64,000 nt of DNA from Veillonellales bacterium (GTDB lineage: Bacteria; Bacillota; Negativicutes; JAAYSF01). How positions within the stretch are numbered: the stretch's first letter is position 1; each line of letters begins with the position of its first letter. The notes beneath the pieces are model-generated. The model was given only the letters and a program-made list of their open reading frames with translations. It was not told the origin of the DNA and made no database searches. A program made the position numbers and the translations under genes. Shown here piece after piece: positions 6,287 through 48,707 of this stretch. The stretch is from assembly GCA_039680175.1 (NCBI GenBank), contig JBDKTO010000074.1:124001-188000 (forward strand), in the 5' to 3' direction.

Positions 6287-6310
6287 AAAAGTGAAAAATT
6301 TCATATAGTG

Positions 6311-6502
6311 ATGCAGGTGCCCTTTGGGGCTTAATAGGGAAGCCGGTTGAAGACCGGCGCGGTCCCGCCACTGTAATGACGAGCGATCCTCAGAATGATG
6401 CCACTGGAACGAAAGTTTTGGGAAGGCCGGGGAAAGCGATGAATCAAAGCCAGGAGAACTGCCTGCAGGACAATCGCCGCTTGACCTACGAACGATGGGG
6501 AG
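6311..6502 (+). promoter_or_regulatory. Cobalamin riboswitch 1
   Basis: Shows the full conserved core: GCAGGTGCC opening, GGGAAGCCGG, CGGTCCCGCCACTGTAA, and the B12 box AGCCAGGAGAACTGCCTG at 6448-6465, closed by a GACCT...GGGG segment. A terminator follows at 6554, so corrinoid binding probably stops transcription before the 179-aa gene at 6737. Confidence 0.95.
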
Positions 6503-7315: not shown

Positions 7316-7432
7316 TTTAGAAGAAAATAGATAAAAGTGTCGAAAAAAGCAGAAGGAAAATGGTCGACATTATTAACCAATTATGCTAAAATTAACTAAA
7401 CAAAGGAAATAAATGAAAAATAAATAGAATTT

Positions 7433-7632
7433 TGGTACAGGTGCCCGCAAGGGCCTAACAGAGAAGCCGGTGTAATTCCGGCACGGTCCCGCCACTGTAA
7501 GGGGGAGCAAAGCCATGATATGCCACTGGGAGCAAAGATTCCCGGGAAGGTTTGGCAAGAGCGATGATCCGGAGCCAGGAGAACTGCCTGTATGACAATC
7601 ACCGTTGACCTGCGAGCGATAGGGAGGGGGAT
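7433..7632 (+). promoter_or_regulatory. Cobalamin riboswitch 2 (first of three in series)
   Basis: Conserved blocks: ACAGGTGCCC, GAGAAGCCGGTG, CGGTCCCGCCACTGTAA, B12 box AGCCAGGAGAACTGCCTG at 7573-7590, then GACCTGCGAG...GGGAGG. A terminator follows at once and no gene comes before the next riboswitch. Confidence 0.95.
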
Positions 7633-7785: not shown

Positions 7786-7825
7786 ATTGAAATAGCTGAT
7801 TTTACAAAATTTCATACGAAATCAG

Positions 7826-8060
7826 GTATCCGGCATCAGGCCGGATTTAAAAGGGAAGTCCGGTGTGATTCCGGCGCTGTCTCGCAACTGTGAAGGAGAG
7901 CCATGTTTCTGCCAGCCTCTTACCAAGGAGAAATGCGGCGATGCTCCCAAGTCAGGGTACTGCCTGGTTTCCAGTGTTTCATCCGGCGATACGCCATATT
8001 TCCGCCGGATGAGACACTCACATCCGTACAGCCTGCGATGGACAGGTCTGGGACTAAGAA
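7826..8060 (+). promoter_or_regulatory. Cobalamin riboswitch 3 (variant, second of three in series)
   Basis: Same core in divergent form: GGGAAGTCCGGTGTGATTCC, then GCTGTCTCGCAACTGTGAAG instead of the usual GGTCCCGCCACTGTAA, and a B12 box variant AGTCAGGGTACTGCCTGG at about 7951-7968, with a long peripheral hairpin after it. The GTGTGATTCCGGC / CAACTGTGA wording is typical of classical AdoCbl-type elements, so its ligand preference may differ from its neighbours. No gene lies between it and riboswitch 4. Confidence 0.88.
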
Positions 8061-8232: not shown

Positions 8233-8254
8233 ACTCGCGATTAACTGCATAGCG

Positions 8255-8455
8255 TTGGGATAGGTGCCCGAAAGGGCTTAATAGGGAAGCCGGTTGAAGG
8301 CCGGCGCGGTCCCGCCACTGTAACGGGGAGCGAATCCGCAAGGATGTGTCACTGAAGCGTACGCTTTGGGAAGGCGCGGGAGAGCGAAGAACCGGAGCCA
8401 GGAGAACTGCCTGTCTGACAATCACCGTTTGACCTGCGAGGTATGGGGAGGAGAT
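8255..8455 (+). promoter_or_regulatory. Cobalamin riboswitch 4 (third of three in series)
   Basis: Conserved blocks ATAGGTGCCC, GGGAAGCCGGTTG, CGGTCCCGCCACTGTAA and B12 box AGCCAGGAGAACTGCCTG at 8396-8413, ending GACCTGCGAGG..GGGGAGG. It lies closest to the operon that starts with the Skp-like gene at 8695. Confidence 0.95.
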
Positions 8456-8694: not shown

Positions 8695-9120
8695 ATGAAA
8701 AAAATAACAGGAAGCTTTTCAGTACTGATCGCCGTATTTTTCCTATGGGGTATTCTGACCCCTGCGACGGCCCTGGCCGCCGCTGTCGGCTGTGTCGACC
8801 GGCAGCAGGTCTTCAGCAGCTACCCCGGCATCCAGGCTCTCATGCAGCAGATTCAGAGCCTGCGGGAAGCGGCGCAAAAGGACTACGACGACCGGGGCAA
8901 GGATCTGCCGGAGGCGGAGCGCAAAGCCCTGAACGACACCATCGCCCGGGAGGAAGCCCAGAAGGAAGACGAGCTGATGAACCCGGTGGGTGACAAAATC
9001 GAAGCGTCCATCAAGGCTGTGGCCGGGGAAAAGGGCTTGACCGTAATCATCGACGCAGGAATTGTGGTCTATGGCGGAGCCGGTATCACCGCCGATGTGA
9101 TCGCTAAAGTAAAGCAATAA
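8695..9120 (+). CDS. Skp/OmpH-like periplasmic chaperone
   Basis: 141 residues. Signal peptide over residues 1-29 (Lys start, hydrophobic core, cut near ALAAA). The mature part is the OmpH pattern: VDRQQVF..YP, a charged helical hairpin (about 45-105), and the end motif VVYGGAGITADVI. Expected role: holding outer-membrane proteins unfolded in the periplasm. It is the first gene after the three stacked cobalamin riboswitches and precedes the very large barrel fusion at 10773, which would need such help. It is a paralog of the protein at 4747, but with GC-richer codons. Confidence 0.9.
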   Translation: MKKITGSFSVLIAVFFLWGILTPATALAAAVGCVDRQQVFSSYPGIQALMQQIQSLREAAQKDYDDRGKDLPEAERKALNDTIAREEAQKEDELMNPVGDKIEASIKAVAGEKGLTVIIDAGIVVYGGAGITADVIAKVKQ

Positions 9121-9211
9121 GCGGCGGCGACAGTATAACCTTAGCCTGTTCGTCCTGCCCGGACGCGGTAACGGCGCCCGGACAGGCTGCGATAGGAATT
9201 CTTCCAAGGAG

Positions 9212-9283
9212 GTGAGTTTTTTTCCCATGGACAGTAAGGAAGAGACCTCAGCAGCCGCCAGGCTGTTGATGGTCGCAAGGTAG
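9212..9283 (+). CDS. Possible small ORF (23 or 18 codons)
   Basis: GTG at 9212 or ATG at 9227, both stopping at TAG 9281-9283. The near-perfect Shine-Dalgarno AAGGAGGTGAG at 9206-9216 overlaps the GTG, so the ATG, 11 nt further on, is the likelier start (18 residues beginning MDSKEETSAAARLL). It is too short to recognise. Such a strong ribosome site 100 nt ahead of the next gene suggests a leader peptide, a small protein, or the remnant of a lost gene. Confidence 0.3.
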   Translation: MSFFPMDSKEETSAAARLLMVAR

Positions 9284-9314
9284 GAAAAACAAAAATTAGG
9301 GAGAGGTGTTTAGA

Positions 9315-10700
9315 ATGGCAAGCTCAACAGTAATCGCGACTTTTTACAATTTCGGAGAGACTTCTTTGGACAAAGGGCGGATACGCTTACTTACTTCTGA
9401 TAGTACTAGCAGCCCGGCATATACTCCGGCACCTGGCAGCGGTACGAGTATTGACAATACGGATCTTATTGCTTTTTATTTCAACGGTGGAAATAACTCA
9501 GGCTTACGAGTTCTGGTAGTGGAAAGAGAGTATGACAGCAGTTATAATCAGTTGCCTTGCTACATTTCCGTATACAATCCAAGCTCTTGGACTGCTACAG
9601 TAGCAAGAGATAACAACTATACTTATAGTGGTACCAGCCAAAAAATACTGAATGTGTATGGTATCCTGTCGCCGAGTGGCGGTACTTTTTACGGCACAGA
9701 CTATTCTACCGGCCGAGTTTTCAAGATGACGCACAGCATCAGCGGTTCTACCGAATCGTTGTCTCTTGCCAGCGATTACTATCCATTTGCGGCGACGGAA
9801 GCAGGCGCATCGGTTTATAGTGTAGCTCTCGCGCTGATTGACAGTTATCTTTATGCCATAGCCCAACAGTATACCAAGTCTGGCTCAGGGACTTCGCCGA
9901 GCGATTACACTTATTATGGCAGCATCATTGCCAAACTCAATCCAGCCAGCTTGGGTACGGCGGTTGCCACTACCGATGATGCGGCTCCGAACGCCTTTGA
10001 TATTCAGGTATATGACGGCAATCTTTATGTAACGGCACTGGGCGGTCCGCAGTGGTATGGCGATCCCGATGATCCGTCAACAATCAAATGGAATTACGAA
10101 TCGCGTATTCAAAAGGTCACGACAAGCCTTGTTGTTACCAATCTTGTCCGTCCGGCGGATGACACGGAAACCGGAAAAACCGATGATAAATTCGACATCC
10201 GCTCCCTGGCGATTCTTTCCGACGGAACGGCCTATATTTTGACCGGCTCCTATGACCAAAATTATTCGATGAACGGCCGTTTCTGGAAAACCACGATGGC
10301 AAAAATTAACGGGTTGAGCGATGGTTTGATAACAGATATTACAATTCCGGTTCCTAGACAAGTTGTACCGCCGATATCTTCGGCGTCTGGCTATTTGTGG
10401 GTAGCCTTGCCGGCGGATGATCTCAGCCGGGCTTGGGGGATGCTGGGTGATAATCTCGGGGTTTACGCAACGTCTCTTTCCGGCAGCACAATTGGTGCTG
10501 CTGCGGCCTCAGGTGGCGGATGGACCGCTGGTACTCCTTCCTTTAACGCTATTTCTCTGGCCGAGCCGGCTACAACATTTGCCAAAGAACTCACTGTGCG
10601 CACCTTGCGCGGCTACGTGCATCCGGTTATGGCCTCCGGCGAGGGTATTCCGACAGAAGAAAGAAAGAAATTTATTCAAGCTCATTTTGAAAAGAAATAA
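9315..10700 (+). CDS. Unknown propeller-like protein without signal peptide
   Basis: 461 residues from ATG 9315, chosen over an in-frame GTG at 9306 because GGGAGAGGTG is then well placed. Not recognised. It has no signal peptide or membrane segment. It is rich in Ser, Thr, Tyr and Gly, with repeated strand-like stretches such as GGTFYGTDYSTGRVFKM, SYLYAIAQQY, DGNLYVTALGG and DGTAYILTGSYD, the kind of pattern seen in beta-propellers. The C-terminus changes to a charged helical tail (TEERKKFIQAHFEKK). It lies between the Skp-like gene and the receptor fusion in the B12-controlled operon. Whether it stays in the cytoplasm or leaves by an unusual route is open. Confidence 0.8.
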   Translation: MASSTVIATFYNFGETSLDKGRIRLLTSDSTSSPAYTPAPGSGTSIDNTDLIAFYFNGGNNSGLRVLVVEREYDSSYNQLPCYISVYNPSSWTATVARDNNYTYSGTSQKILNVYGILSPSGGTFYGTDYSTGRVFKMTHSISGSTESLSLASDYYPFAATEAGASVYSVALALIDSYLYAIAQQYTKSGSGTSPSDYTYYGSIIAKLNPASLGTAVATTDDAAPNAFDIQVYDGNLYVTALGGPQWYGDPDDPSTIKWNYESRIQKVTTSLVVTNLVRPADDTETGKTDDKFDIRSLAILSDGTAYILTGSYDQNYSMNGRFWKTTMAKINGLSDGLITDITIPVPRQVVPPISSASGYLWVALPADDLSRAWGMLGDNLGVYATSLSGSTIGAAAASGGGWTAGTPSFNAISLAEPATTFAKELTVRTLRGYVHPVMASGEGIPTEERKKFIQAHFEKK

Positions 10701-10772: not shown

Positions 10773-13700
10773 TTGCAAAGAAAAAAACAGCGTAAAAAAC
10801 CTATAGCGTGGAGCCTTAGAGCCTGTTCACTGGCGCTTTTGCTTACTACTTCGTATACATTGCCGCTGTATGCGTCTCAAACAGTTAATAATGAAAATGT
10901 TGATAGGACCATGGTCGGGAAAGCGGGGGATACCCACACCATATCCGGTACTGTGACAACCTATGCCACAGACACTCAGGATGGTGATTTAGATGCTGTG
11001 AATATGTATGCGGGCGAATATCAATCTGCCATAACCTTGCTCACCGGCAGTGTCTGGCGTCCGCTTGACGCGGCAGATTCAGCGGTTGTGAATGTTTATT
11101 CCTCCTTTCGAATGGAGTCGGGTTCCATGGTTGATCTGGCCTATAAATACAGCGCGGACAATGGCTATGTCGACAATATAGCGGCAGGATATACAACATG
11201 GCCAGTAGGGAGTACTGTGGGATCTGAGAAGGCTCCTTACCGTCAAATGAATATCACAAACGGCAAGTTTGGCGATGATCTTACCTTCCGCATCAATCTG
11301 GGCACACACCTTTCCACGCTTAACCCAGCAGGGACAAAATATGTTTACCGGGGTGGCTGTAGCGATTCCGTTACCCTGAAGAATCCAAGCCATATTGACG
11401 GTGTAACAACTTCGAATATTAAACTGGAATATGTACTGAATAAAAATTTTGCGGCAGGCTACAATTCAAATTTCTCCTGGTCAACTGTCGCCGATACAAC
11501 GCTTAAAGGCGAAGTTGCCAATGTTTTTGGTATTACGAATGCTACCAAGAATCAAAGCCTAATGGACTCATTCCAAGTTACCGGGGAGGCAACCAATCAA
11601 GTTGACGGCGCTCTCAATAAGTATGATATTTCTACGGAACTGGTACAAACAACCAGTACTGCTAAAAGTAAATATTACAGTGTTACTTGGACAGCGCAAA
11701 AATCAAACTCTCTTTCCCAGGGAGCTTACTCTACCGCCAATGCAGCCCTTGCGACCCGCAATTTATGGCGGATTGAGGACGGCCTGTTCTGGAAGCGCGG
11801 CGACGACCGGCGGTTTGCCAACCGCGGCATTGCCAAGGACGATTTCAGTGACCGGGAAGGCGTGTGGACCAATACCTGGCGGGGAAAATACACTTATGAC
11901 GGCGTGCAGAACTCCAGCTTTGGCCAGATGTACAGCGGCATCCAGGTCGGCTATGACAAGCTGCGGGACCGGGAACTGCTGGGCGGCAAGGTCTATACCG
12001 GACTGTTTTTCAGCAAAATGACCGCCGATGCTGATTTCAACGCCCAGAATACCGGCGGCGCTGCCTACAACAGCGGCAAAGGCGATCTGGACAGCACCGG
12101 CCTCGGCGCTTATATGCTCTGGGAAGGCAAAAAAGGACACTATCTGGATGCCATGGTGCGCTGGAGCAAAATCGACAATGGCTATACGTATACCGATTCC
12201 TTCGGCGACAGCTACCGGAAGGATTTTGACGCCAAAACCTACGGCATCGGCGCCCGTTACGGTTTGCGCATTGATAAAGGCAACGGCTGGTTTATGGAAC
12301 CGCAGGTCGGCCTTTCCTACGGCATAATGCGCTCCTTTAATTTCCGTATGGACAACAGTTTAAAGTATTCCCAGGACCAGATGGACATGCTGATCGGCCG
12401 CGCCGGACTGTCCGTCGGCAAGAGCTACGGGCAGGGCGATCACACTGGCGAAGCGTATCTCAAGCTGACCGCCAATCATGACTTCATGGACGGCGGCAAC
12501 GCCATGATGTACGCCATGCAGAACAGTACAAATCCAAGCCTGAATGACGTCGTTCTGGCCTCGCAAAAGGTGGACACCCTGGCCGGCAAGGACACCTGGT
12601 ATGACGTGACGCTGGGCAGCAATTTCAAGCTGGGCGACAGCCGGGACGGCTGGCTGGAAGCCAATAAATCTTTCAGCGGCAAGGTCAACACCGACTGGCA
12701 GATTAACGGCGGTGTCGCCTGGCATTGGGGCGGTCCATCCAAAGTCAAAAAGGCGGCAGCGGTGAATACGGCTGTGCAGAGTCCGCTTGCGGACACCGCG
12801 AAGGAAGGCGCTGCCGTTGACAAAGGTGCAACCCCCAATTTGCCTGAGGGCAATGGTTCAGCGCCGCAGACGAATGCAGCCAACGGTGATAATGGCAATA
12901 TGAACATTGCCGGCGCGGCTGAACCCATATCGCCCGGCGGCACCAATGCCACCGGGACAGCCGGTACGCTGCCGCCGGGCAGTACGGGTGAGTTTACGTT
13001 CGCTCCGGTAGTGGTCGAAGCCGCCCGGCCGGACTGGGAGAAAAAACTCTCGCCGGGAACGGTCTCCGTCATTGAGGTGCCGAAATACGCCGGCGAGCAT
13101 AAGACATTGGCCGATCTGCTGCAAACGGTGCCCGGCGTTTATATCGACCGGATCTCCGGCGGCGGCACCGGCCATTATTCGACGGTGCGGGTGCGCGGCT
13201 CCTCGGCCAGCGAGGTCAATATCTACATGGACGGCGTTTTAGTGAATACCGGCAGCGAGCAGGCGGTCAACCTGGAAAACCTCAATATCGACAATGTGGA
13301 GCGCATCGAAGTCTATCGCGGCTATATCCCGGCCCGGTTTGCCGGGGCGGCCATGGGCGGTGCGATCAACATCGTGACGAAAAAACCGGATAAAACCGGC
13401 GGCAAGGTCAGCTGCGGCCTGCGGTCCTTCGGCGGCCAGAAATACAATTTGGAGACGACCGCTCCGGCCGGCGACGGCAGCCTGCTGCTGGCGGTTAACC
13501 GTGACCAGGCCAAAGGAGATTTTAAATATAATAAAATTGTGGATACGTATGATGTCATAAAATGGGGAATTGTAAATGGAAAGCAAGTTCCAGTAGAAAC
13601 CTATCCGCTGACACGCTGGCGCCAGAACAACGGCTATGAGGATAACAACATCCTGGCCAAATGGCAGGATAAAAACTGGTTTGTGAAGCTGAACTATATC

Positions 13701-15095
13701 AATAATAAGACCCATACGCCGGGCAGCGTGAACGGCTACCTGATCGATGTGCCGGACAGTATGCTGCCGCCAGAGATCACAACTGCTAGTAAAGCGTTGC
13801 GTGCCGGCACGATTGATACGGAGAAAACCGAGCTGTCCTTCGGCCGCCGCCAGCAAAGCGGCAATGTGGAATGGGGTTGGAAGCTGGATGCCATTCACCA
13901 GAATAAAGACGCGTTATATTTGCGGTACGATAACGGCAACAGGGACATTGCCTTTGGAACCAATACCTTCCGCAACAATACCTATAACGCATCCGTTGAC
14001 GGCACCTGGAAGATGGGGGAAAGCCACCTGCTGGAATTCCTGGCCACCGCCAGCAAGGAAACCATGAAGGTGCGCTTTACCGCCGACGATGCCTGGAGCA
14101 CGAACTGGGGCAAGAAATTTGAGCAGTATTTCCTGCCGAAATACAATATGAGCAATTACTACCTCCAGCTCCAGGATACGATGAAACTGGACGATGCCGG
14201 CAGTCTGACCTTTACGCCCCTGGTGCGGGCCCAAAAATCCGATATCGGCATTGACGTGAAAGAAGGCGAAGGCTGGCTGTACAGCTATAACCTGGGCCTG
14301 AAGAAAAAGTGGAATGATCAATGGACCACCTGGGCCACCTATGGTACTTATAACAAACTGCCGAGTTGGTATGAACTGTTTGGCGATGGTGTCAATCTTG
14401 TGTCAAAATGGCATGAATATAACAGCATCGCTGAATGGAGTCCGGAAACGTCTGCGGAGCATGGGAAAAATTGGGATGTATCCGTTAACCGGACCGGAAA
14501 GATGTTCGGATCGGACAGCGATACCACCCTGACGTATTTCCACCGCAACTCGGAAAATCTGATGACGACTATGTTTAACCCCCTATACGGGGCAACCTGG
14601 TATGCGAATTACGGTGCCGGAAAGATTCAGGGGGTCGAGCTTAGCAGCAAAATGCATTGGGAAAAATTTGACTTTACGCTAAGCACGACATGGCAGGATT
14701 CTCTTACTACGAAAGGATATACCGCTTATGCGAATATGAGCATGACCAGCTGGCAGGGGCAGCCCTTCCCCTGGACGCCGGAGTGGACGGTCAACGCTCG
14801 TCTGGATTACCGTTTCCCCGGCAATAAGTTCAGCGTCTTCGGTGAATACAACTGGACGGATGAGCTAAGCTGGTACAATGGTTCGGGTTCAAGGTACTAC
14901 TATGAAGCCATGGGGCTCTTCAATATCGGTATGAAGTATTCATTCAATAAGCAGTATAAACTGATTGCCGGTGTGAATGACATCGCCAACAAGGGGCCGA
15001 AACAATGTGTTGTTTACAGTGACAGCAATAGAAAAAATGTTGCCTATCCGCAGCAGGGCCGTACCTATTATATGACGGTGGAATATACATTCTGA
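10773..15095 (+). CDS. Two-barrel fusion: autotransporter plus TonB-dependent receptor
   Basis: 1440 residues from TTG 10773; GGGAGGGTG lies 6 nt upstream, and starting further up would put a hairpin inside the gene. Order: signal peptide (about 1-37, KKQRKK then a hydrophobic core); passenger (about 38-330); a complete autotransporter barrel (about 335-655, ending GGVAWHWGG); a 90-residue Ala/Gly/Pro/Asn linker; a TonB-box-like stretch (FAPVVVEA, about 745); a plug domain with VRVRGSSASEVNIYMDG and MGGAINIVTKKP; and a roughly 550-residue receptor barrel ending in an aromatic strand (YYMTVEYTF). The frame is continuous. An autotransporter barrel ends in the periplasm, so the linker and TonB box would be correctly placed. 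Cobalamin riboswitch control suggests corrinoid or cobalt capture. I know of no standard family with this architecture. Confidence 0.9.
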   Translation: MQRKKQRKKPIAWSLRACSLALLLTTSYTLPLYASQTVNNENVDRTMVGKAGDTHTISGTVTTYATDTQDGDLDAVNMYAGEYQSAITLLTGSVWRPLDAADSAVVNVYSSFRMESGSMVDLAYKYSADNGYVDNIAAGYTTWPVGSTVGSEKAPYRQMNITNGKFGDDLTFRINLGTHLSTLNPAGTKYVYRGGCSDSVTLKNPSHIDGVTTSNIKLEYVLNKNFAAGYNSNFSWSTVADTTLKGEVANVFGITNATKNQSLMDSFQVTGEATNQVDGALNKYDISTELVQTTSTAKSKYYSVTWTAQKSNSLSQGAYSTANAALATRNLWRIEDGLFWKRGDDRRFANRGIAKDDFSDREGVWTNTWRGKYTYDGVQNSSFGQMYSGIQVGYDKLRDRELLGGKVYTGLFFSKMTADADFNAQNTGGAAYNSGKGDLDSTGLGAYMLWEGKKGHYLDAMVRWSKIDNGYTYTDSFGDSYRKDFDAKTYGIGARYGLRIDKGNGWFMEPQVGLSYGIMRSFNFRMDNSLKYSQDQMDMLIGRAGLSVGKSYGQGDHTGEAYLKLTANHDFMDGGNAMMYAMQNSTNPSLNDVVLASQKVDTLAGKDTWYDVTLGSNFKLGDSRDGWLEANKSFSGKVNTDWQINGGVAWHWGGPSKVKKAAAVNTAVQSPLADTAKEGAAVDKGATPNLPEGNGSAPQTNAANGDNGNMNIAGAAEPISPGGTNATGTAGTLPPGSTGEFTFAPVVVEAARPDWEKKLSPGTVSVIEVPKYAGEHKTLADLLQTVPGVYIDRISGGGTGHYSTVRVRGSSASEVNIYMDGVLVNTGSEQAVNLENLNIDNVERIEVYRGYIPARFAGAAMGGAINIVTKKPDKTGGKVSCGLRSFGGQKYNLETTAPAGDGSLLLAVNRDQAKGDFKYNKIVDTYDVIKWGIVNGKQVPVETYPLTRWRQNNGYEDNNILAKWQDKNWFVKLNYINNKTHTPGSVNGYLIDVPDSMLPPEITTASKALRAGTIDTEKTELSFGRRQQSGNVEWGWKLDAIHQNKDALYLRYDNGNRDIAFGTNTFRNNTYNASVDGTWKMGESHLLEFLATASKETMKVRFTADDAWSTNWGKKFEQYFLPKYNMSNYYLQLQDTMKLDDAGSLTFTPLVRAQKSDIGIDVKEGEGWLYSYNLGLKKKWNDQWTTWATYGTYNKLPSWYELFGDGVNLVSKWHEYNSIAEWSPETSAEHGKNWDVSVNRTGKMFGSDSDTTLTYFHRNSENLMTTMFNPLYGATWYANYGAGKIQGVELSSKMHWEKFDFTLSTTWQDSLTTKGYTAYANMSMTSWQGQPFPWTPEWTVNARLDYRFPGNKFSVFGEYNWTDELSWYNGSGSRYYYEAMGLFNIGMKYSFNKQYKLIAGVNDIANKGPKQCVVYSDSNRKNVAYPQQGRTYYMTVEYTF

Positions 15096-15102
15096 TGATG
15101 GC

Positions 15103-15134
15103 GCCGGGCGGCTGTTGTGTATCCGCCGCCCGGC
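15103..15134 (+). other. Perfect GC hairpin after the fusion gene
   Basis: GCCGGGCGGC (15103-15112) pairs with GCCGCCCGGC (15125-15134), 12-nt loop, no T-run. Likely an mRNA stability or partial termination element inside the operon. Confidence 0.55.
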
Positions 15135-15160
15135 CCAGAATCACTAAGGAGCGACTAAGG

Positions 15161-15754
15161 ATGGATGGGAAACGTAAGTTGTTGATTCTTAAACTGGACC
15201 TTATCGACAGTATGCGGGAAATCGATGCGATCCGGCAAGCAGTTGCGCAGAAAGCCGCTGGTTTGGTAGAAGTGCGTGCTGTCGGCTGCGAAAAACCCGA
15301 GGACATCATAACTGCCGTTGCCGATGACCAGCCGGACTGGGTCCATATCGTCGGCCGCAGCAATGACGAAGCACTGATTTTTTCCGGCGGCAAAAGCGGG
15401 GAAAGTCAGTTTGACCGCATTCGTTTGCTGAAACATTTGCGCCGGGCGGTGCCGGGTCTTGCCTTGCTTACGCTGAACAGCAAGCTGGACAACCGGGATT
15501 TGGGCAATATGGGGCAGCTCCGGACCGTGATCGGCATGCAAGACGGCTACAATCCTTTAGCTTCCCGCCAGTTCATGCCCCGCTTTTACGCCAATATCTG
15601 TCTGGGAATGCCGCTGGCACCGGCCGCAAAAACCGCTATTGAAGGGATGCAGCCGGAAGTGGTTCAGCATGGCGGCATGCCGTCCATGTGCTTCAGCCGC
15701 AGCATTGACCCGGAAACCTTTCTATTTTTGCCAAGAGAAACGGCAGTGAATTAG
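15161..15754 (+). CDS. CHAT-like (caspase-fold) protein with degenerate catalytic sites
   Basis: 197 residues from ATG 15161, chosen for the AAGGAG site 8 nt upstream; an in-frame ATG at 15095 overlaps the fusion stop. No signal peptide. The layout follows single-domain CHAT proteins: KLLILKLDL strand, then WVHIVGRS (61-67) where active members have H-x-x-G-H-G, ALLTLNSK (101-108) where they have L-N-A-C, then VIGMQDG, a helix with FYANICLGMPL, and a short tail. The second His is Arg66 and the Cys position is Lys108, so it should lack protease activity. Perhaps it acts as a sensor or scaffold. The fold assignment is by eye and moderately sure; the degeneracy holds only if it is right. It neighbours a papain-like protease gene. 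Confidence 0.55.
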   Translation: MDGKRKLLILKLDLIDSMREIDAIRQAVAQKAAGLVEVRAVGCEKPEDIITAVADDQPDWVHIVGRSNDEALIFSGGKSGESQFDRIRLLKHLRRAVPGLALLTLNSKLDNRDLGNMGQLRTVIGMQDGYNPLASRQFMPRFYANICLGMPLAPAAKTAIEGMQPEVVQHGGMPSMCFSRSIDPETFLFLPRETAVN

Positions 15755-15787
15755 CAGCGGGCTTGCCGCCTGGCGGCAGGCCATGGG

Positions 15788-15819
15788 ATGACAGGCCCGG
15801 CAACCACCGGGCCTGTCAT
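15788..15819 (+). terminator. Perfect 13-bp hairpin after the CHAT-like gene
   Basis: 15788-15800 pairs with 15807-15819 across a 6-nt loop, followed by ATATTTCT. Weak T-run: partial terminator or RNA-processing hairpin. Confidence 0.6.
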
Positions 15820-15891
15820 ATATTTCTGCCTGCCCGGCAGAGTGATTTACGGTCTAAGCAATATTTTTAACAGAAGAGGAGCAATGACCCG

Positions 15892-16347
15892 ATGGAAAAT
15901 GGCAATATAAAAGCAAACAAGTTTCAGGAATTTTTAACAGCCGGTCGGCTTACCTGCTTTGGCGTACAGGAAATGAACGACGCGGTGCATACCGTACTCT
16001 TTCGCACCAATCTGGAGGTCGGCGGCCAGCAGCTGCCGGTCTTGTTCGTTACCGACGACAGCCTGTATGCGACGATCCAGGTGCGGGTCGTGCCGGCGGC
16101 CGTCCGGGACGGGAACAGCCACAGCGTCCTCACCTTTGTCAATGAACGGAACCGGACCTATAAGAACTTCAAGTATTTTATCGGCGAGGATAATTCCCTG
16201 ATTTTGGATGTCTGTCTGACGGCTGAGCCGGAACAATTCGAACCGCAGCTTGTCAGTCTGACGCTTGACATCATCCTGCGGCACCTGACGGACGAATACC
16301 CGGTGATCATGCGTACAATCTGGGCCGGGGAAATCCCGCAGAGCTGA
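15892..16347 (+). CDS. YbjN-like (type III secretion chaperone-like) small protein
   Basis: 151 residues, no signal peptide. The AGAGGAGC site about 9 nt upstream supports ATG 15892. It is a paralog of the protein at 5264, sharing VLFRTNLEVGGQQLPVLFV..DSLYATIQVR, the VNERNRTYKNFKY segment and the YPVIMRTIW tail. It ends 18 nt before the papain-like gene, so the two are probably co-translated. By fold analogy it may bind a partner polypeptide, with the protease or the surface proteins as candidates; this is inference. Confidence 0.6.
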   Translation: MENGNIKANKFQEFLTAGRLTCFGVQEMNDAVHTVLFRTNLEVGGQQLPVLFVTDDSLYATIQVRVVPAAVRDGNSHSVLTFVNERNRTYKNFKYFIGEDNSLILDVCLTAEPEQFEPQLVSLTLDIILRHLTDEYPVIMRTIWAGEIPQS

Positions 16348-16365
16348 AAAAATGGAGGTATTGCG

Positions 16366-17262
16366 ATGAAGCAGCATGTCATTCTTTCCGACAACAGAAA
16401 GGTAGGGACCGGCTGGCGGCCGCCCCTGCCGGATTTGCGCGACTATAACGAGTGTCATCCCAAGCTGCAGGAAGCCATAAAGAAGCTGGGGATCGATCCG
16501 GATGCCCCTTTGCCGGCCAAGACCGACCTGCGCCAGTGGTGCTCCCCCGTTCAGGACTAGGGGCAGCTGGGCGCCTGTACCGCCCACGCGGCGGCGGGCA
16601 TTGTCGAATATTTCGAGAATCGCTCCTTTTCCCGGACTGTGACCGCCTCGCGGCTGTTCATCTACAAGAATGCCCGCAGCCTGGAGGGCGCGGCCGGCGA
16701 CAGCGGCACGTACATCCGGGATACCATGGGGGCGCTGGCCCTCTGCGGCGTGCCGCCGGAAAAATACTGGCCCTATACCGACAAAGACCCGGATTTTGAT
16801 AAGGAACCGACCGCCTTCGTCTATGCCATCGCCGACAATTATGAGGCGCTGCAGTATTTCCGCCATGACGCCGCCAGCGTCAATCCAACGCCGGCCGATG
16901 TGCTGGCGAGCGTGAAAAAGTATCTGGCTGCCGGTGTGCCGTCCATGTTCGGCTTTTACGGCTTCAACTCCATGGACGCATCCGATGTTCCCGGCGGCAT
17001 TCCCGCCCCCGGCCCGGACGAGCAAGCCAGCTGGGGCCACGCCGTGGCCGCTTTCGGCTATGACGACGCACTCAAGATCAAAAATACCCAGTATAACCGG
17101 GAAACCACCGGCGCCCTCCTTATCCGCAACTCCTGGGGCAGCGATTGGGGCGACCATGGGTACGGCTGGCTGCCCTATGAATACGTTCTGAACAAGCTGG
17201 CCACGGATTTCTGGTCGCTTTTAAACATGGACTGGGTCGCCGCCGACCAGTTCGGCGTGTAG
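16366..17262 (+). pseudogene. Papain-family (C1A) protease frame cut by an in-frame TAG
   Basis: ATG 16366 after GGAGG. The frame reads 64 codons, meets TAG at 16558-16560, then continues cleanly to the normal stop at 17262. The TAG occupies codon 65 in the context PVQD-stop-GQLGACTAHA; papain-like enzymes have the oxyanion-hole Gln here, six residues before the catalytic Cys (codon 71). One C-to-T change would turn CAG into TAG. Downstream the catalytic His (WGHAVAAFGYD, codon 225) and Asn (IRNSWGSDWG, codon 255) are intact, so decay, if any, is recent. No signal peptide or usual propeptide is seen. Options: a fresh nonsense mutation, a sequencing error, or readthrough. Restart at GTG 16639 would lose the Cys. 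TAG also ends this gene and the 15161 gene, so general recoding is unlikely. Confidence 0.85.
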
Positions 17263-17282
17263 AGAACCGAGGAGGGATAAGC

Positions 17283-18410
17283 ATGAGTTTGATCGACTGG
17301 TTTACCAATTTGTTTGTGAAGGAATCGAAGCACTATGTCTTTGCGCCGGCTGCATCCGACGTGGAAAAGATTGAGTTTCAGGAAGGGCAGCACTACTTCC
17401 GCCTGCGGCTGGCGGAAATGTTCTTAAAAGACGATCGTAAATTATTCCGCAGCTATGTTCCCGTTGTTTCTTCGGTCGCAGCGCTGCAATTCGGCTCTAA
17501 TGATGCCCAGCAATTGCCCGGCTTGGCCGGTCCGCTGGCGCTGAATTTGAATGAAAGCTCCCTGGGACATGGCGTGGAGCTGAATTACGCCCTGACCAAT
17601 CTGGTGCCCTATCGCGGCGGCAATGTGTCCATCAGCGCCGCCTTACTGGCCTATGTCAATAAAGACTATTTGCAGTCATTCCTAAGTCTCGCCAGCAGCA
17701 TTTCCAGCCTGCTGACCATCGGCCAGCTGTCAACCACCCTTAAGGTGGTTGACAGCACGGTAAACGGCATTCAGGACCTGCTGGACGGCGGGGACAAAGA
17801 CATCCGCCTGGTGTTTCACAATGAATATTCCGGTACGGACAGCCTGGGCGGCGTGTCCCTCACAAGCGGCTATTTTGCCGTCGTTGGCGCTGATGCCGGC
17901 AAATTTCAGCCGGAAAAACTGTTCGTCAAAAACTCGCAGCTTTGTTTCGGCGACGAGCAGTCATCGGCCAAGCCGCTCACCGGCTACGACTATATGCTGT
18001 TCAGCGTGGAAGCGGCGCTGTACCGGGACGACTTCCGCTATTTCACCGAATACAACAGTTTGCTTTATACCGCCATTGAAAAGGGCATGACGAATAAAAG
18101 CGAAGGCGACGCCGTTATCCAGGCGGCTATGCTGGCCGTATTCAAATCGGCTGATCTGACCTATGTCGATAAAACCCGGGTAGCGGCCGCGCTGAAACAA
18201 GAGTATGAAGAACGGCTCGCCGTCCTGCAGGACAAGGGGATCAAAGCCGCGGCCGGCATGACAAGCGAGTGGCTGAACGACCGGGCGCTGGCGATTGATC
18301 CGGAAGGGGTATGGCGGCAGATTTCGCCGCTTTTGGCTGAAAACGAGCCGGATGACGCGGCCATCGCCGGCAGGATTCTCGGCATGATCGGGAATGGTGA
18401 AATAGTCTGA
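17283..18410 (+). CDS. Unknown 375-aa protein
   Basis: Not recognised. GAGGAGGG lies 8 nt ahead of ATG 17283, 20 nt after the protease frame. No signal peptide. A beta-rich N-terminal half (HYFRLRLAEMFL, YVPVVSSVAALQF, and LVPYRGGNVSISAALLAYV, the most striking segment) leads to a hydrophobic helical stretch at about 130-165 (SFLSLASSISSLLTIGQL), then strands (DIRLVFHNEY, GYFAVVGAD) and a helical C-terminal half. Tight coupling to the papain-like frame suggests a partner, inhibitor or substrate of the protease. Confidence 0.8.
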   Translation: MSLIDWFTNLFVKESKHYVFAPAASDVEKIEFQEGQHYFRLRLAEMFLKDDRKLFRSYVPVVSSVAALQFGSNDAQQLPGLAGPLALNLNESSLGHGVELNYALTNLVPYRGGNVSISAALLAYVNKDYLQSFLSLASSISSLLTIGQLSTTLKVVDSTVNGIQDLLDGGDKDIRLVFHNEYSGTDSLGGVSLTSGYFAVVGADAGKFQPEKLFVKNSQLCFGDEQSSAKPLTGYDYMLFSVEAALYRDDFRYFTEYNSLLYTAIEKGMTNKSEGDAVIQAAMLAVFKSADLTYVDKTRVAAALKQEYEERLAVLQDKGIKAAAGMTSEWLNDRALAIDPEGVWRQISPLLAENEPDDAAIAGRILGMIGNGEIV

Positions 18411-18519: not shown

Positions 18520-18632
18520 TACAAAATAGAAAACGACAGAGGGGTAGAGAAGTATCGCATAGGATGAGAAAGTGACGACAAATGCATAAAGAGGTACAAG
18601 GATTATATAAAAAATTATTAAAGGGGCTTAGG

Positions 18633-21515
18633 ATGAATAAAAAACGGTATTTAGAGAAGAAAATAGCTATTGCGCTGCTTTTGGGGCTAACCTGCGTAGG
18701 CTCAAATGCCTATGCGGAAGAAGACGGCACTCAGAATACGGCTGAACCAAAATATACACTGGAAGCAATAACGGTCGAGGCGAAACGGCCGGACTGGGAG
18801 AGCAAGCTGTCGCCCGGTACGGTGACGATTATCAGGCCTGACGATTATCAAGGCGAACAGAAAACATTGCCGGAACTCCTAAAGCAGGTACCGGGCGTGC
18901 ACGTGCGCGAGCTTAACGGCAAAGGCCAGTATACCACCGTCAGCGTGCGCGGTTCCACGGCAGCGCAGGTAGGCGTATTTGTAGACGGAGTGCTGTTCAA
19001 CCTTGGCGGGGATGCTGCGGCGGATATTTCCACGATTCCGGTCCAGAATGTCGAGCGCATCGAAGTGTACCGCGGTTATATTCCGGCGCGGTTCGGCGGT
19101 ACCTTCATGGGCGGCGTGATTAATATCGTGACGAAGAGGCCGACGAAAGAGAATGTGCAGGCCAGCATCGGCCAAAGTTCCTTCGGCGGTTATAAGGGAA
19201 GTCTGCAGGTGGATGCTCCCTTGGGAAAAGGCAGCCTGATGGTGGGCGTCAATCACGAACAAAGTGACGGAGATTTCAAATACAAGAACTTTTCATATGA
19301 TATTGATAAAAACTATCAACAATACATGATGACAGCTGCAAGCTATCAACAAAACACGATAAGTGAATACAATTCCGCTATGAAAAAGCTGGGTATTTAT
19401 GATGAAAATGGTAATGTGCAAAAGTTGAAGCCAATTATATCTTCAGGAACAACAGCGGCAGATTATAAAAAGAACTATGAAGACAATTTTACGCTCCTGA
19501 AGACGGCTTGGGATAAGTATGATTCAAAAATAGAAGCTATATTGGCAGACAATGATGCTTTATTGTTAAAAGGCATCCAAAATAATAAATATTTTACAAA
19601 TTATGATAATATAAATGCTCTTTATGATACTTCAGCAGTGAATCAGGCAAAGATGTATCAAAGTCTTGTTTCAGGGAATAAATTTAGAGTTAGTCTGTAT
19701 ACACTTAATCAGGCTGGCTACACGGTAACCGATTATAGCAGCTACATCAATGCCTATAACAGCTACAAGCAGACCAATTTTACCAGTATACAGGATATAC
19801 TTGGCAATGATTGGAAAGACGGTACGCATGGAGCTGCTTTTAAGGATTTTCTGGAACGCTGGAAAGGCGACTCAGGGTTACGGCAAATAGAACAGCTTAA
19901 GGAAACCTATGAATTTGCCAAAAAATATTACGGTATGGCCGGCGAGGCATCAACGTCTGAACGTTGGCGTAAAGCGAATGACTATAAGAATACGGATGCC
20001 ATTATCAAATGGCAGGATGACCATTGGCTGGCCAAGGCTACCTGGAAACAAATAGAGAGGCATCTGCCATATCCTTACAACAACAATTATGGTGATTTGC
20101 CTAGTGTAGATACGAACGCTGAATTTAATGATATTTTAGATATTTATTATCACCGCAATCAAAAACTGACAGCCAAAGAAGCGTTGCTGGGAAGGCGCGA
20201 TACGGCAGGCAACCTGGAATGGGGCTGGAGCGTAAACTATCTGGACCAGAATAAAGACTATTATGTAGACAACTGGCAGTGGATAGACCAGAATGCAGGT
20301 GCTGTTCTCAATACCTACGCAGCCAACAGTCTGTGGAGCAAATTCGACAGCCGCCGTTTAGGCGTCAAGTTCGACGGCAGCTATAAGGCCGGCGACAAAC
20401 ATTTAATAGAGTTCTTACTAGACGGGTCCAAAGAAAAAATGGATATCGACGGCTGGCGCATGTTTGACTATAAAAATTCCAGCCAAGATACCAGAAAAAG
20501 ATGGCGCAACTACTATGAACAAAAAATTTTTAATGCCCAAGTGCAGGATACCATCACTCTGAATGAAAAGAAAGACTTTTGGCTGACGCCGAGCGTCCGC
20601 TACAACAGGTCAACTATCTTGGGGCGCAGCGACAGGTATGATGCGGCAAACGATCCCCAGAAGGTAAAATGGTTCCATAAAGAAGACGTGCAAACAAATG
20701 ATAAAGCGACATGGCAAATGGCTTTGAAAAAGAAGGTGAGTGACAACCTGACTATCAGGGCAACGGGCGGCACCTATTACAGACTGCTGAACATGTACGA
20801 AATCGCCGGTGACGGCGCGGGCATCTGGCCGATGCCGAATGTTGGCGGTACGGACAGCGTATTTCCATTGCCGGAAGAAGGGAGCCAGTGGGATTTGAGC
20901 GCCATTTGGGATGGCAAGGCTTTGGGGGCTGACAGCGCAAAATTCCAGCTGACCTATTTCGGACGGGATTCCGACCATCTGCTGCAATTGATGAGCCGGC
21001 ATTTCTTCTTCTTCTACACGAATGCGGCCAAGGCAAAAGTCAACGGCCTAGAAATGCAGGCGGATATGTCCTGGCAGAAATGGGACCTTAACCTGCAGGC
21101 AACCTATACGAAGCCCAGTCATGTAAGCTACGACATGACTTGTCTGCCAGGTTATGACAAAAATACGACTTCCGGTTATCTGACGTATATACCGGAGTGG
21201 GAAGGCACAGTGCGCGTAACTTACCGTCCGAATACAAGCTGGAGCCTATTTACGCAGCTGCGTTATGTAGCCGATATGTACACTGACCCGATACCGCTTA
21301 CTACAGGAGCAACTGAAAACCAGTCTTCCTTAACGGTTTGGGATCTGGGGGTCAAACACAAAATAGATAAATCATTCCAATTGTCAATGGGCGTCAACGA
21401 TATATTTAACAAAGCAATTGACATGTATAAGAAAACTTATGAAGGCGAAGCGGTCAATATCCAGTACCCGATCCAAGGCCGTACTTACTATGCTACTTTG
21501 CAGTATAAATTCTGA
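18633..21515 (+). CDS. TonB-dependent receptor with large extracellular-loop insertion
   Basis: 960 residues from ATG 18633; the in-frame ATG 18582 has a poor ribosome site and would spoil the signal peptide. Signal peptide about 1-30, TonB-box-like YTLEAITVEA, plug with VSVRGSTAAQVGVFVDG and MGGVINIVTKRP, barrel ending YYATLQYKF. It shares the unusual RPDWE(S/K)KLSPGTV motif and YRGYIPARF with the receptor half of the fusion at 10773, so both belong to one subfamily. Residues about 221-450 (nt 19293-19980) form an AT-rich, Tyr/Asn/Lys-rich, mostly helical insert where the fusion has only about 30 residues; it should project from the cell surface. Ligand unknown; corrinoid is a guess from context. 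Confidence 0.9.
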   Translation: MNKKRYLEKKIAIALLLGLTCVGSNAYAEEDGTQNTAEPKYTLEAITVEAKRPDWESKLSPGTVTIIRPDDYQGEQKTLPELLKQVPGVHVRELNGKGQYTTVSVRGSTAAQVGVFVDGVLFNLGGDAAADISTIPVQNVERIEVYRGYIPARFGGTFMGGVINIVTKRPTKENVQASIGQSSFGGYKGSLQVDAPLGKGSLMVGVNHEQSDGDFKYKNFSYDIDKNYQQYMMTAASYQQNTISEYNSAMKKLGIYDENGNVQKLKPIISSGTTAADYKKNYEDNFTLLKTAWDKYDSKIEAILADNDALLLKGIQNNKYFTNYDNINALYDTSAVNQAKMYQSLVSGNKFRVSLYTLNQAGYTVTDYSSYINAYNSYKQTNFTSIQDILGNDWKDGTHGAAFKDFLERWKGDSGLRQIEQLKETYEFAKKYYGMAGEASTSERWRKANDYKNTDAIIKWQDDHWLAKATWKQIERHLPYPYNNNYGDLPSVDTNAEFNDILDIYYHRNQKLTAKEALLGRRDTAGNLEWGWSVNYLDQNKDYYVDNWQWIDQNAGAVLNTYAANSLWSKFDSRRLGVKFDGSYKAGDKHLIEFLLDGSKEKMDIDGWRMFDYKNSSQDTRKRWRNYYEQKIFNAQVQDTITLNEKKDFWLTPSVRYNRSTILGRSDRYDAANDPQKVKWFHKEDVQTNDKATWQMALKKKVSDNLTIRATGGTYYRLLNMYEIAGDGAGIWPMPNVGGTDSVFPLPEEGSQWDLSAIWDGKALGADSAKFQLTYFGRDSDHLLQLMSRHFFFFYTNAAKAKVNGLEMQADMSWQKWDLNLQATYTKPSHVSYDMTCLPGYDKNTTSGYLTYIPEWEGTVRVTYRPNTSWSLFTQLRYVADMYTDPIPLTTGATENQSSLTVWDLGVKHKIDKSFQLSMGVNDIFNKAIDMYKKTYEGEAVNIQYPIQGRTYYATLQYKF

Positions 21516-26598: not shown

Positions 26599-29500
26599 AT
26601 GGCCCGTGTCGTTTTTTTGACCAATATGGAGCGTCAATTTACGATGATGGAGCAGGCACGGAAACAGTTGGAAGCAGAAAGAAAGCTGCAAACCGGCAGC
26701 CAGGTTGTTTTCTTGAATGGAAATAGTATCTGGGAACCGGAGCATGCGGCTGTCTTAGAAAATAGCGACATCGTTTTATTTTCATGGATGGGTGTCAGCT
26801 ATGATATTCGGTTTTTAAAGCAGACAATGAAATTTTTGCGAAAAAAAGGAATTAGGCATGTTATGCTGGCTGCCGCTGCCAATCCGGAAGATTCGCTGCA
26901 GGGAGTTTCTTTGGAAGAACAGGTGATGATGCGCACTTATTTATTGTACAGCGGCAGGGAGAATTACCGGAATTTCTGGCTGTGGCTGGCGGCGGAATTT
27001 TGCGGCGAAGACTGTGAATATCAGCCGCCGCAGCAATTATTATGGAATGGCATTTTTCATCCCCGGGCCGGCGAACCGATTGTTAATATTGCACAATATC
27101 AGGAACAGTTTATCAAACCGGACCGTCCGACAATCGGTATTTTGTTTTCCCGGGACGAATGGGTCTGGGGCGATTTGGCATATCAGACAGCATTGGCGGA
27201 GGAAATCGAACGTCAGGGCATGAATGTGATCGCAGCGTTCAGCCATTGGGCGCGCAATGCCGAACAGAAAATTTCCGGTGTGGATGATACGGTGAAAGCG
27301 TATTTTTATCAGGATGGAATGCAGCTCATTGATGTGCTGATCAATACGTTTAAATTTTCCCTTACCGTCGGCAGGCCGGTGGATCAAAAATTTTTGCGTC
27401 AGCTGGACGTGCCGATTTTGCAGGCTTATGGCTTGCTGCGTCCTTGTGCGGAATGGGAAAACAGCAGCGAAGGCATGACGCCGACGGAAATTTCTCATAC
27501 GATTTCCATGCCTGAATTTGACGGTGTTATTCATGCGGTACCGGTTGCCAGCAAAGAGAATTTCCCCGATGGGACGAAAAGATACATGCCTATTAGGGAG
27601 CGGCTGGGGCTGGTAGTACGTAAAGCCGGCAAGTGGGCCCGATTGCGCTGCAAAGCCAACAGCGAGAAAAAAATCGCCATTATTTTTCATAATTATCCGG
27701 CGACAAATTCCAATATCGGCAGTGCCCAGGGCATGGATTCACCGGCAAGCATTCGCCTGCTGCTGGAGCGTATGGCCGGGCGGGGATATAAAGTGGATCA
27801 TATCCCGGCCGACAGCCAGGCTTTCATGAATGATTTGCTGGCGGCAGCCACGAACGACCGGCGTTATTTAACCGAACAGCAAATCGAACAGGCTGCCGGC
27901 AAAGTAAGCGATGCCCAATACCGTGAATGGGTTGACAACATTGCACCGGAAAACCGGGAGCAGTTGACCAGGGATTGGGGCGAGCCGCCCGGCGATGTGT
28001 TTCATTACGACGGGCAGCTATTAGTCCCCGGCAGGCTGAACGGCAATATTTTCATCACGGTGCAGCCGCCCCGGGGATTCGGCGAGGATCCCGGGAAAAT
28101 ACTGCATTCGCCGGATTGCGCTCCCACCCATCATTATCTGGCTTATTATCATTGGATCCGGGATGTCTGGCAGGCGGACGCCGTGGTTCATGTGGGAACC
28201 CACGGGTCATTGGAATGGCTTCCCGGCAAGGGAGCGGGTCTGTCCTGCCGCTGCTACCCTGATTTGTCCATTGGCGATCTTCCTAATGTGTATCCCTATC
28301 TGATTACGATTGTCGGCGAGGGACTGCAGGCCAAGCGGCGGGGAGCCGCCTGCCTTATTGGCCATTTGCCGCCGCCGATGAGTCACGCCGACACGTATGA
28401 AGAGATGGCGGAGCTGGAAAAGCTGCTGGACGAATATGTTCATTTTAAGGTGAATCAACCGGGTAATCTGGACGTGGTGATGGAGCAAATCCGCGGCAAG
28501 GCCGCGGCGCTGAATCTGACGGAGGATATTCCGGAACAGGCGGATCAGTCTTTTGACGACTATGTACAGCGATTGCATGTTTATATTACGGATATTAAAA
28601 ATATGACAATCCGGGTTGGTCTGCATGTGCTGGGCTGTCCGCCGGAAGGAGAAGTGTTGGAAGAATATTTGCTGGCGCTTACCCGCATGGACAACGGGGA
28701 TGTTCCCTCCATGCCGAAAGCACTTGCCGCCGCTTACGGCTGCGACTATTATCAACTGCTGGAGCAAAGCGGCACCCTGCTGCCGGACGGCAGCAAGACC
28801 GGCGGAGCATTGCTGGACGAAATCAGGGGGCAGTGCCGTGAAATTATCGGGCTGCTGGCTGAGAACAATTTTGCCGTGGAACAGGCGGGGCGTATTTTGG
28901 ATTTGCCCTGGATAAAACAGTTTACGCCGCAGATTGCAGAGCAATTGCTGCAGACAGGACGTTATATTTGCCAGACGGTGGTGCCGAATCTGCAAAAGAC
29001 CGAGCAGGAGATTACCAATCTGCTGGCAGCCCTGGGAAGCCGCTATGTTGAACCGAGCCCGGCTGGAGCGATTACCGGCGGGATGGCCGATATTCTGCCG
29101 ACAGGCCGCAATTTTTACGGCATTGATCCCCGGACGCTGCCTTCGCCGTCGGCCTGGGAAATCGGCAAGACGCTGGGCGACAATGTGATTGGACGGTATA
29201 TTGAAGAGGAAGGCGGTTATCCGGAAAACATCGGCATGGTAGTATGGTGCGGTGCCAATATGCGCAGTCACGGTCAATGCATTGCCGAATTTTTGTATTT
29301 GCTGGGGATCCGACCGGTATGGCAGCGAGGCAGTCTGCGGGTCGTGAATTTGGAGGTTATTCCCCTTGCCGAACTGAAACGGCCGCGAATTGATGTGACG
29401 GCCCGCATCAGCGGTCTGGTGAGGGACGCCCTGCCGACAGCCGTGGAGTGGATGGACAAAGCGGCTATCATGGCTGCGGAACTGGAGGAAAGCTCGGACA

Positions 29501-48621: not shown

Positions 48622-48676
48622 AGCCATGAAGGTTTAGCTCACCTAGAAAGGTGGGTTATTTCTTTATGGCTTTTTT
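48622..48676 (+). terminator. Attenuator-like two-stem terminator, copy 2
   Basis: Same structure as at 42221 (outer stem AGCCATGAAG / CTTTATGGC, inner hairpin, T6). It stands directly ahead of the propeller gene. Confidence 0.75.
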
Positions 48677-48707
48677 GATAAATGGTTTTATTGTGGTACC
48701 AAAGGAG

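Follow-up and report, generated by a model that had tools for sequence, protein, structure and literature searches.

A single reading frame joining an autotransporter to a TonB-dependent receptor in a corrinoid gene cluster of a Veillonellales bacterium

The fused gene and its domain order

The window analysed here is a stretch of 64,000 nucleotides from a Veillonellales bacterium (assembly GCA_039680175.1, contig JBDKTO010000074.1, positions 124,001 to 188,000), and its positions are counted from its first letter. On the forward strand it contains a single stop-free frame (10773-15092) that encodes an autotransporter and a TonB-dependent receptor in one polypeptide of 1440 amino acids. The frame opens with a TTG start at 10773, with a GGAGGG motif a short way before it, and is closed by the stop codon at 15093-15095. 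It begins with a signal peptide, placed approximately at residues 1-36 from the sequence itself (10773-10880), followed by a passenger carrying a conserved WRPxD domain, delimited by alignment and profile comparison (residues ~37-334, 10881-11774). The autotransporter beta-barrel (residues ~335-651, 11775-12725) was recognized by Pfam, NCBIfam and its end motif, WQINGGVAWHW. Thereafter come a linker of low complexity, defined by its composition (residues ~652-739, 12726-12989), a TonB-box-like motif, PVVVEA (residues 745-750, 13005-13022), a plug domain (residues 760-864, 13050-13364), and a TonB-dependent receptor barrel with matches to PF00593 and TIGR01779 (13365-15092).

Two complete outer-membrane barrel domains thus lie in one frame according to Pfam. 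The autotransporter barrel PF03797 was matched by residues 364-628 (E = 1.1e-32, profile positions 1-252 of 255), the plug PF07715 by residues 760-864 (E = 4.5e-18, positions 5-107 of 107), and the receptor barrel PF00593 by residues 1007-1402 (E = 2e-23, positions 49-434 of 436). The NCBIfam autotransporter barrel TIGR01414 covered residues 261-652 (E = 4.2e-30). A first-pass annotation had proposed two different outer-membrane barrels in one open frame, with the folding signal of the autotransporter internal and a linker of about 90 residues leading to a TonB-box-like stretch, a plug and a second barrel. This layout was borne out: the order of the Pfam domains within the stop-free frame is as proposed, the end motif finishes near residue 651, the linker is 88 residues long (89% P/A/T/S/Q/G/N/E/D/K), and the junction contains neither a frameshift nor a stop codon.

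The N-terminal half has the signal peptide, passenger and PF03797 barrel with end motif of a type Va autotransporter. The barrel and its end signal are, however, not at the extreme C-terminus as in that class but internal, with ~790 residues and a second barrel behind them. The C-terminal half has the features of a TonB-dependent transporter, namely PVVVEA, PF07715, PF00593, and an aromatic-ended C-terminus (VEYTF). The internal end motif resembles the true C-terminal sequence, YKVNAGIRFTF, of an autotransporter that stands alone in the window, and a motif of this type was kept in all 32 fused frames compared. An end signal in this position is a real puzzle for the beta-barrel assembly machinery (BAM). 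No hydrophobic stretch that could form a second signal peptide was found in any linker, either in the window protein or in its fused homologues. With the sole signal peptide at the N-terminus, the receptor half is not exportable by itself. The proposed topology, in which the first barrel ends in the periplasm, is supported as workable.

Homologues and age of the fusion

The search for the same domain order in other genomes covered a class sample of 300 Negativicutes genomes. Scoring was limited to the few top candidates of each genome, so the counts of fused frames are lower bounds. At least ~31 intact fused frames, each with both barrels, were found in 23 of the 300 genomes and in 11 families, with lengths from 1059 to 3553 amino acids. 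For the homologue from Anaerospora hongkongensis (1468 amino acids), identity to the window protein is 86% over the autotransporter barrel, 78% over the receptor half, and 48% over the passenger. Among the fused homologues at large, identity falls to ~27-34% in each barrel. Sporomusa termitida carries three fused copies, one of them on the complete plasmid pSPTER (RefSeq WP_170233416.1, 1776 amino acids), and the genome of the window itself holds a second fused paralogue of 1847 amino acids that lies ~15 kb upstream on this contig. The close homologues are fused rather than encoded as separate genes. As intact fused frames recur in independent genomes, chance or sequencing error is excluded as the origin of the architecture. 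The idea that an assembly error or a frameshift has joined two adjacent genes has nothing but the oddity of the architecture in its favor. Independent genomes hold ~31 intact frames, one of them on a complete plasmid, and none has a second signal peptide; such an artefact is so improbable that we reject it.

The pairwise identities of the two halves are correlated (r = 0.954), and none of 2000 permutations gave a correlation as high. The trees of the two halves also share their main groups. Because of this correlation and the common groups, we conclude that the halves have travelled together in the main family. Two very long fused frames (locus L082, 7658-18316 on the reverse strand, 3553 amino acids; locus L083, 1557-10241 on the reverse strand, 2895 amino acids) were placed differently: in one tree they fall among other autotransporters, and in the other they belong to a different receptor clade. 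They likely represent a second, independent fusion as judged from these trees, in which their branches are long. Both are also preceded by cobalamin riboswitches, with scores of 35 and 97 bits.

The fusion could be a polyprotein, that is, one chain cut in the linker after insertion to yield equal amounts of two ordinary proteins, an autotransporter and a receptor, so that the joining sets only stoichiometry and shared regulation. The linkers are of low complexity and vary in sequence and in length (71-149 amino acids), and they should therefore be easy for proteases; cleavage after insertion is also common among autotransporters. Yet inspection of the linkers by eye revealed no conserved cleavage motif, and operons already provide shared regulation, while the fusion has been kept over deep divergence. 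We therefore regard cleavage into two ordinary proteins as unlikely, and favor a chain in which both barrels would fold and stay joined.

In a phylum sample of 398 genomes, matches at 1e-40 were confined to the class, and in a plasmid collection only S. termitida was matched at 80% coverage. Confinement to Negativicutes is not proven by these searches, which covered the class sample, the phylum sample, and the plasmid collection. One broken copy was found in all, a second fused copy in tandem with an intact one that it adjoins (locus L060, 1818-6220 on the reverse strand); its frame is interrupted inside the plug, not in the linker.

Cobalamin riboswitches and the corrinoid context

Rfam identified six cobalamin riboswitches (RF00174) in the window, four of which lie upstream of the row of genes that contains the fused gene, all on its strand: 6298-6480 (117.2 bits, E = 9.9e-29), 7422-7605 (120.7 bits, E = 1e-29), 7807-7981 (71.1 bits, E = 1.6e-15), and 8245-8428 (110.7 bits, E = 7.2e-27), the last being closest to the row. 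The same pattern was seen throughout the family. At every one of 31 fused loci, one to four cobalamin riboswitches were present upstream on the same strand and within 4.5 kb, with two or more at 22 of the loci, and none of the 91 riboswitches at these loci was on the opposite strand. Of the only 15 cobalamin riboswitches in the whole genome of the window, 14 are on this contig. In Sporomusa ovata, cobalamin riboswitches, including the one of btuB2, proved functional when tested with a reporter (PMC9600662), so such elements of this lineage can work. In the window the same element is stacked before one gene row, with three copies in close tandem and a fourth upstream of them.

The window as a whole is a corrinoid cluster, with CobN twice, CbiC, CbiQ, a FecCD permease, an ABC ATPase, ExbB, and two receptors in addition to the fused one. 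A stand-alone TonB-dependent receptor related to the receptor half, as judged by Pfam and the tree, is encoded at 18582-21515 on the forward strand. For the receptor half itself TIGR01779 (TonB-B12) was the best family, and it was matched by all 10 members tested. The suggestion of the first-pass annotation that the ligand is perhaps a corrinoid is supported by the riboswitches at 31 of 31 loci, by the gene cluster, and by a neighboring protein resembling BtuG, which is described below. On this genomic evidence a corrinoid is the likely cargo of the fused protein. The two CobN-type chelatase genes (26599-30318 and 54888-58760) are close to TonB-dependent receptors, and the cluster also encodes a 592-residue protein with PQQ/WD40-like propeller matches (48651-50429, PF13360, E = 2.3e-11).

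A BtuG-like partner protein

Directly upstream of the fused gene, at 9306-10700 on the forward strand, lies a gene for a propeller-like protein of ~450 residues that we call C0 and that was identified by profile match. It has no match to a Pfam family. At 24 of 30 fused loci C0 directly adjoins the fused gene, always on the same strand, upstream for most copies with a short passenger and downstream for those with a long passenger. A profile of 22 C0 members compared with all PDB sequences matched 8ptf and 8ptd (YncE-family) and 8blw chain B at E-values between 0.007 and 0.02. When more distant members were added to the profile, these values improved to 5.1e-6 for 8ptf/8ptd and 1.5e-5 for 8blw chain B, which is BtuG1. 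The entry 8BLW shows BtuB1G1 from Bacteroides thetaiotaomicron (PMC10404256); BtuG is a propeller of seven blades that sits on BtuB as a cap and captures B12. C0 is thus related in sequence to the BtuG propellers, through a remote and local match of ~75 residues, and the next matches were designed propellers. Internal repeats, as a sign of a propeller, were weak in C0 (best segment pair E = 8e-4 among 45). The signal peptide with lipobox cysteine that characterizes BtuG is absent from C0, which has no lipobox and mostly no signal peptide; the C0 protein of the window has none.

The arrangement of C0 in other loci ties it further to receptors and to autotransporters. At other loci (L102-L107) it follows stand-alone receptors of the fused-receptor type under cobalamin riboswitches. 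In seven giant autotransporter-type frames of 2200-3900 amino acids (L095-L101), a C0 domain comes first behind the signal peptide (E = 1e-19 to 1e-40). Six of these close with an autotransporter barrel, and the seventh is cut off by a contig end. The giant frames adjoin a corrinoid-type receptor, as several do, or sit in arrays of such proteins. Since C0 heads autotransporter passengers, the C0 domain is placed on the surface by an autotransporter in some genomes. Taken together, the neighborhoods and domain combinations provide strong indirect evidence that C0, the display barrel and the receptor work together. In A. hongkongensis and in genome G118 (L057, 11493-12888; L067, 12048-13473) the gene for C0 falls into two frames, through decay or sequencing error.

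The passenger

Fused proteins have either short (~300 amino acids) or long (~600 amino acids) passengers, and the two kinds are homologous (hhalign E = 5.7e-35). Six residues are invariant, W95, P97, D99, D121, D278, and Y284, and the WRPxD motif is shared. Sequence conservation marks the passenger as a single conserved domain rather than an adhesin of variable sequence. We also considered the passenger as a relative of C0, and the two were unrelated on comparison. The first-pass annotation had the displayed passenger capture the ligand. Of this, the corrinoid is likely, while the best capture candidate by homology is C0 and not the passenger. Because the passenger is unrelated to C0 and without a Pfam or PDB match, a capture role for it is inferred.

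An autotransporter half that serves adhesion, or that shields the receptor against phages or bacteriocins, would leave the import of corrinoid to the receptor half alone. Autotransporter passengers are often adhesins, and the only PDB match of the passenger profile was an adhesin passenger, at an E-value of 0.12 that gives it no weight. The single conserved domain with its invariant W, P, D, D, D and Y, co-inherited with a corrinoid-regulated receptor, is unlike fast-changing adhesins, and we consider adhesion or shielding improbable.

Proposed function and points against it

We propose that the fused protein is one outer-membrane chain with two barrels for corrinoid acquisition, in which a BtuB-like transporter is joined to an autotransporter displaying a capture or lid module. 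We hold this to be probable from the sequence comparisons. The one signal peptide would direct the chain to the periplasm, where the N-terminal autotransporter barrel would insert and put the ~300-residue passenger on the surface. The C-terminus of this barrel would remain periplasmic and continue through the probably disordered linker into the TonB box, plug and BtuB-like barrel. C0, if exported, and perhaps the passenger too, would capture the corrinoid above the receptor, much as BtuG acts on top of BtuB in Bacteroides. Import would be powered by TonB/ExbB energy, and at high corrinoid supply the riboswitches would turn the system off. The fusion would hold the display module next to the pore at 1:1 through a single export event.

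Several results weigh against this proposal. The receptor half scored 83.3 bits, far below the TIGR01779 equivalog cut-off of 599.7, and in PDB searches its barrel matched siderophore (ferric enterobactin) receptors at least as well as BtuB. C0 is not nearby in 6 of the 30 fused loci, and 21 of 22 aligned stand-alone C0 members have no signal peptide, the exception being L080. The passenger has no relatives in Pfam or PDB. AlphaFold on three-row alignments gave a pLDDT of 25 for residues 301-1440 and of 31 for C0, values too low for usable models. The resemblance to enterobactin receptors would also suit another cargo, such as a siderophore, heme, or a cobalt complex, with cobalamin status only coupled to its import, and the CbiQ and CobN genes nearby show cobalt traffic. 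Against such a cargo stand the cobalamin riboswitches at every fused locus and at the stand-alone relatives, together with the BtuG-like partner, and we judge it quite doubtful.

Corrinoid acquisition by capture at the cell surface has a known counterpart, since B12 is captured next to BtuB in Bacteroides (PMC6143338, PMC10404256). The Bacteroides BtuB-BtuG(-BtuH) systems and the fused loci have in common control by cobalamin riboswitches, a BtuB-like receptor, an adjoining propeller gene and, as proposed here, a capture module displayed on the surface. They differ in that the capture module is lipid-anchored in Bacteroides, whereas here an autotransporter barrel is fused to the receptor. In B. 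thetaiotaomicron, BtuG1 and BtuH are fused (PMC10404256), so B12-capture modules are joined in one chain there as well, but as two surface lipoprotein domains and not as two membrane barrels. BtuG was found only in Bacteroidetes by BlastP (PMC6143338). With the proposed function, surface capture of B12, the work of lipoproteins in Bacteroides, would reach into the diderm Firmicutes, where the device for anchoring is another one. A family that bears only the label "TonB-dependent receptor" in RefSeq, the name of WP_170233416.1, would also gain a likely function.

Multi-barrel outer-membrane proteins are a known kind, for example GfcD (PMC11494523). They share with the fused protein two outer-membrane barrels per chain and a periplasmic joint. 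Here, in contrast, the partner of the TonB-dependent receptor is a type V secretion barrel that displays a passenger. Multi-barrel outer-membrane proteins were reportedly surveyed by Solan et al. in 2021 (doi 10.1073/pnas.2104059118). No description of an autotransporter-TonB-dependent receptor fusion was found in the literature searched, which did not include that survey. With display outward and import inward in one chain, the protein would be a natural test of whether BAM is able to read an internal end signal and hand over to a second barrel.

On a broader scale, it seems rather likely that Negativicutes have merged type V secretion with TonB-dependent import at least twice, giving a two-barrel chain that shows a corrinoid-capture domain beside its own pore. 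The BtuG-like propellers would then be a third, freely recombining module that stands alone beside a receptor, stands beside the fusion, or forms an autotransporter passenger. With the same modules found in these three arrangements, the capture hypothesis can be tested directly.

Other genes of the row

Between the riboswitches and C0, an OmpH/Skp-like periplasmic chaperone with a signal peptide is encoded at 8695-9120 on the forward strand (PF03938, E = 3e-16) and recurs at 15 of 30 loci. It belongs to the same riboswitch-led row and may help to fold the barrel with the internal signal, which is a guess. A frame of 161 amino acids at 8743-9228 on the reverse strand was discarded as a gene, as it is antisense to the OmpH-like gene.

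Downstream of the fused gene, all on the forward strand, are a CHAT (caspase-like) relative found by Pfam in which the catalytic His/Cys are not evident (15095-15754; 11 of 30 loci), a YbjN-like protein (15892-16347; Pfam E = 0.0012 and locus comparison), the C-terminal part of a papain-like (C1) protease (16639-17262; Pfam and locus comparison), and a conserved 375-residue protein without Pfam match, C8 (17283-18410; 8 of 30 loci). The protease gene (~16400-17262) is apparently split, with its N-terminal piece in another frame, and is intact in other genomes at ~299 amino acids. Genes for CHAT, papain-like protease and YbjN-like proteins, and elsewhere a subtilase, occur in rows led by cobalamin riboswitches (15095-18410 of the window; L068, L072, L064, L102, L106, L107), and their products apparently have no signal peptides.

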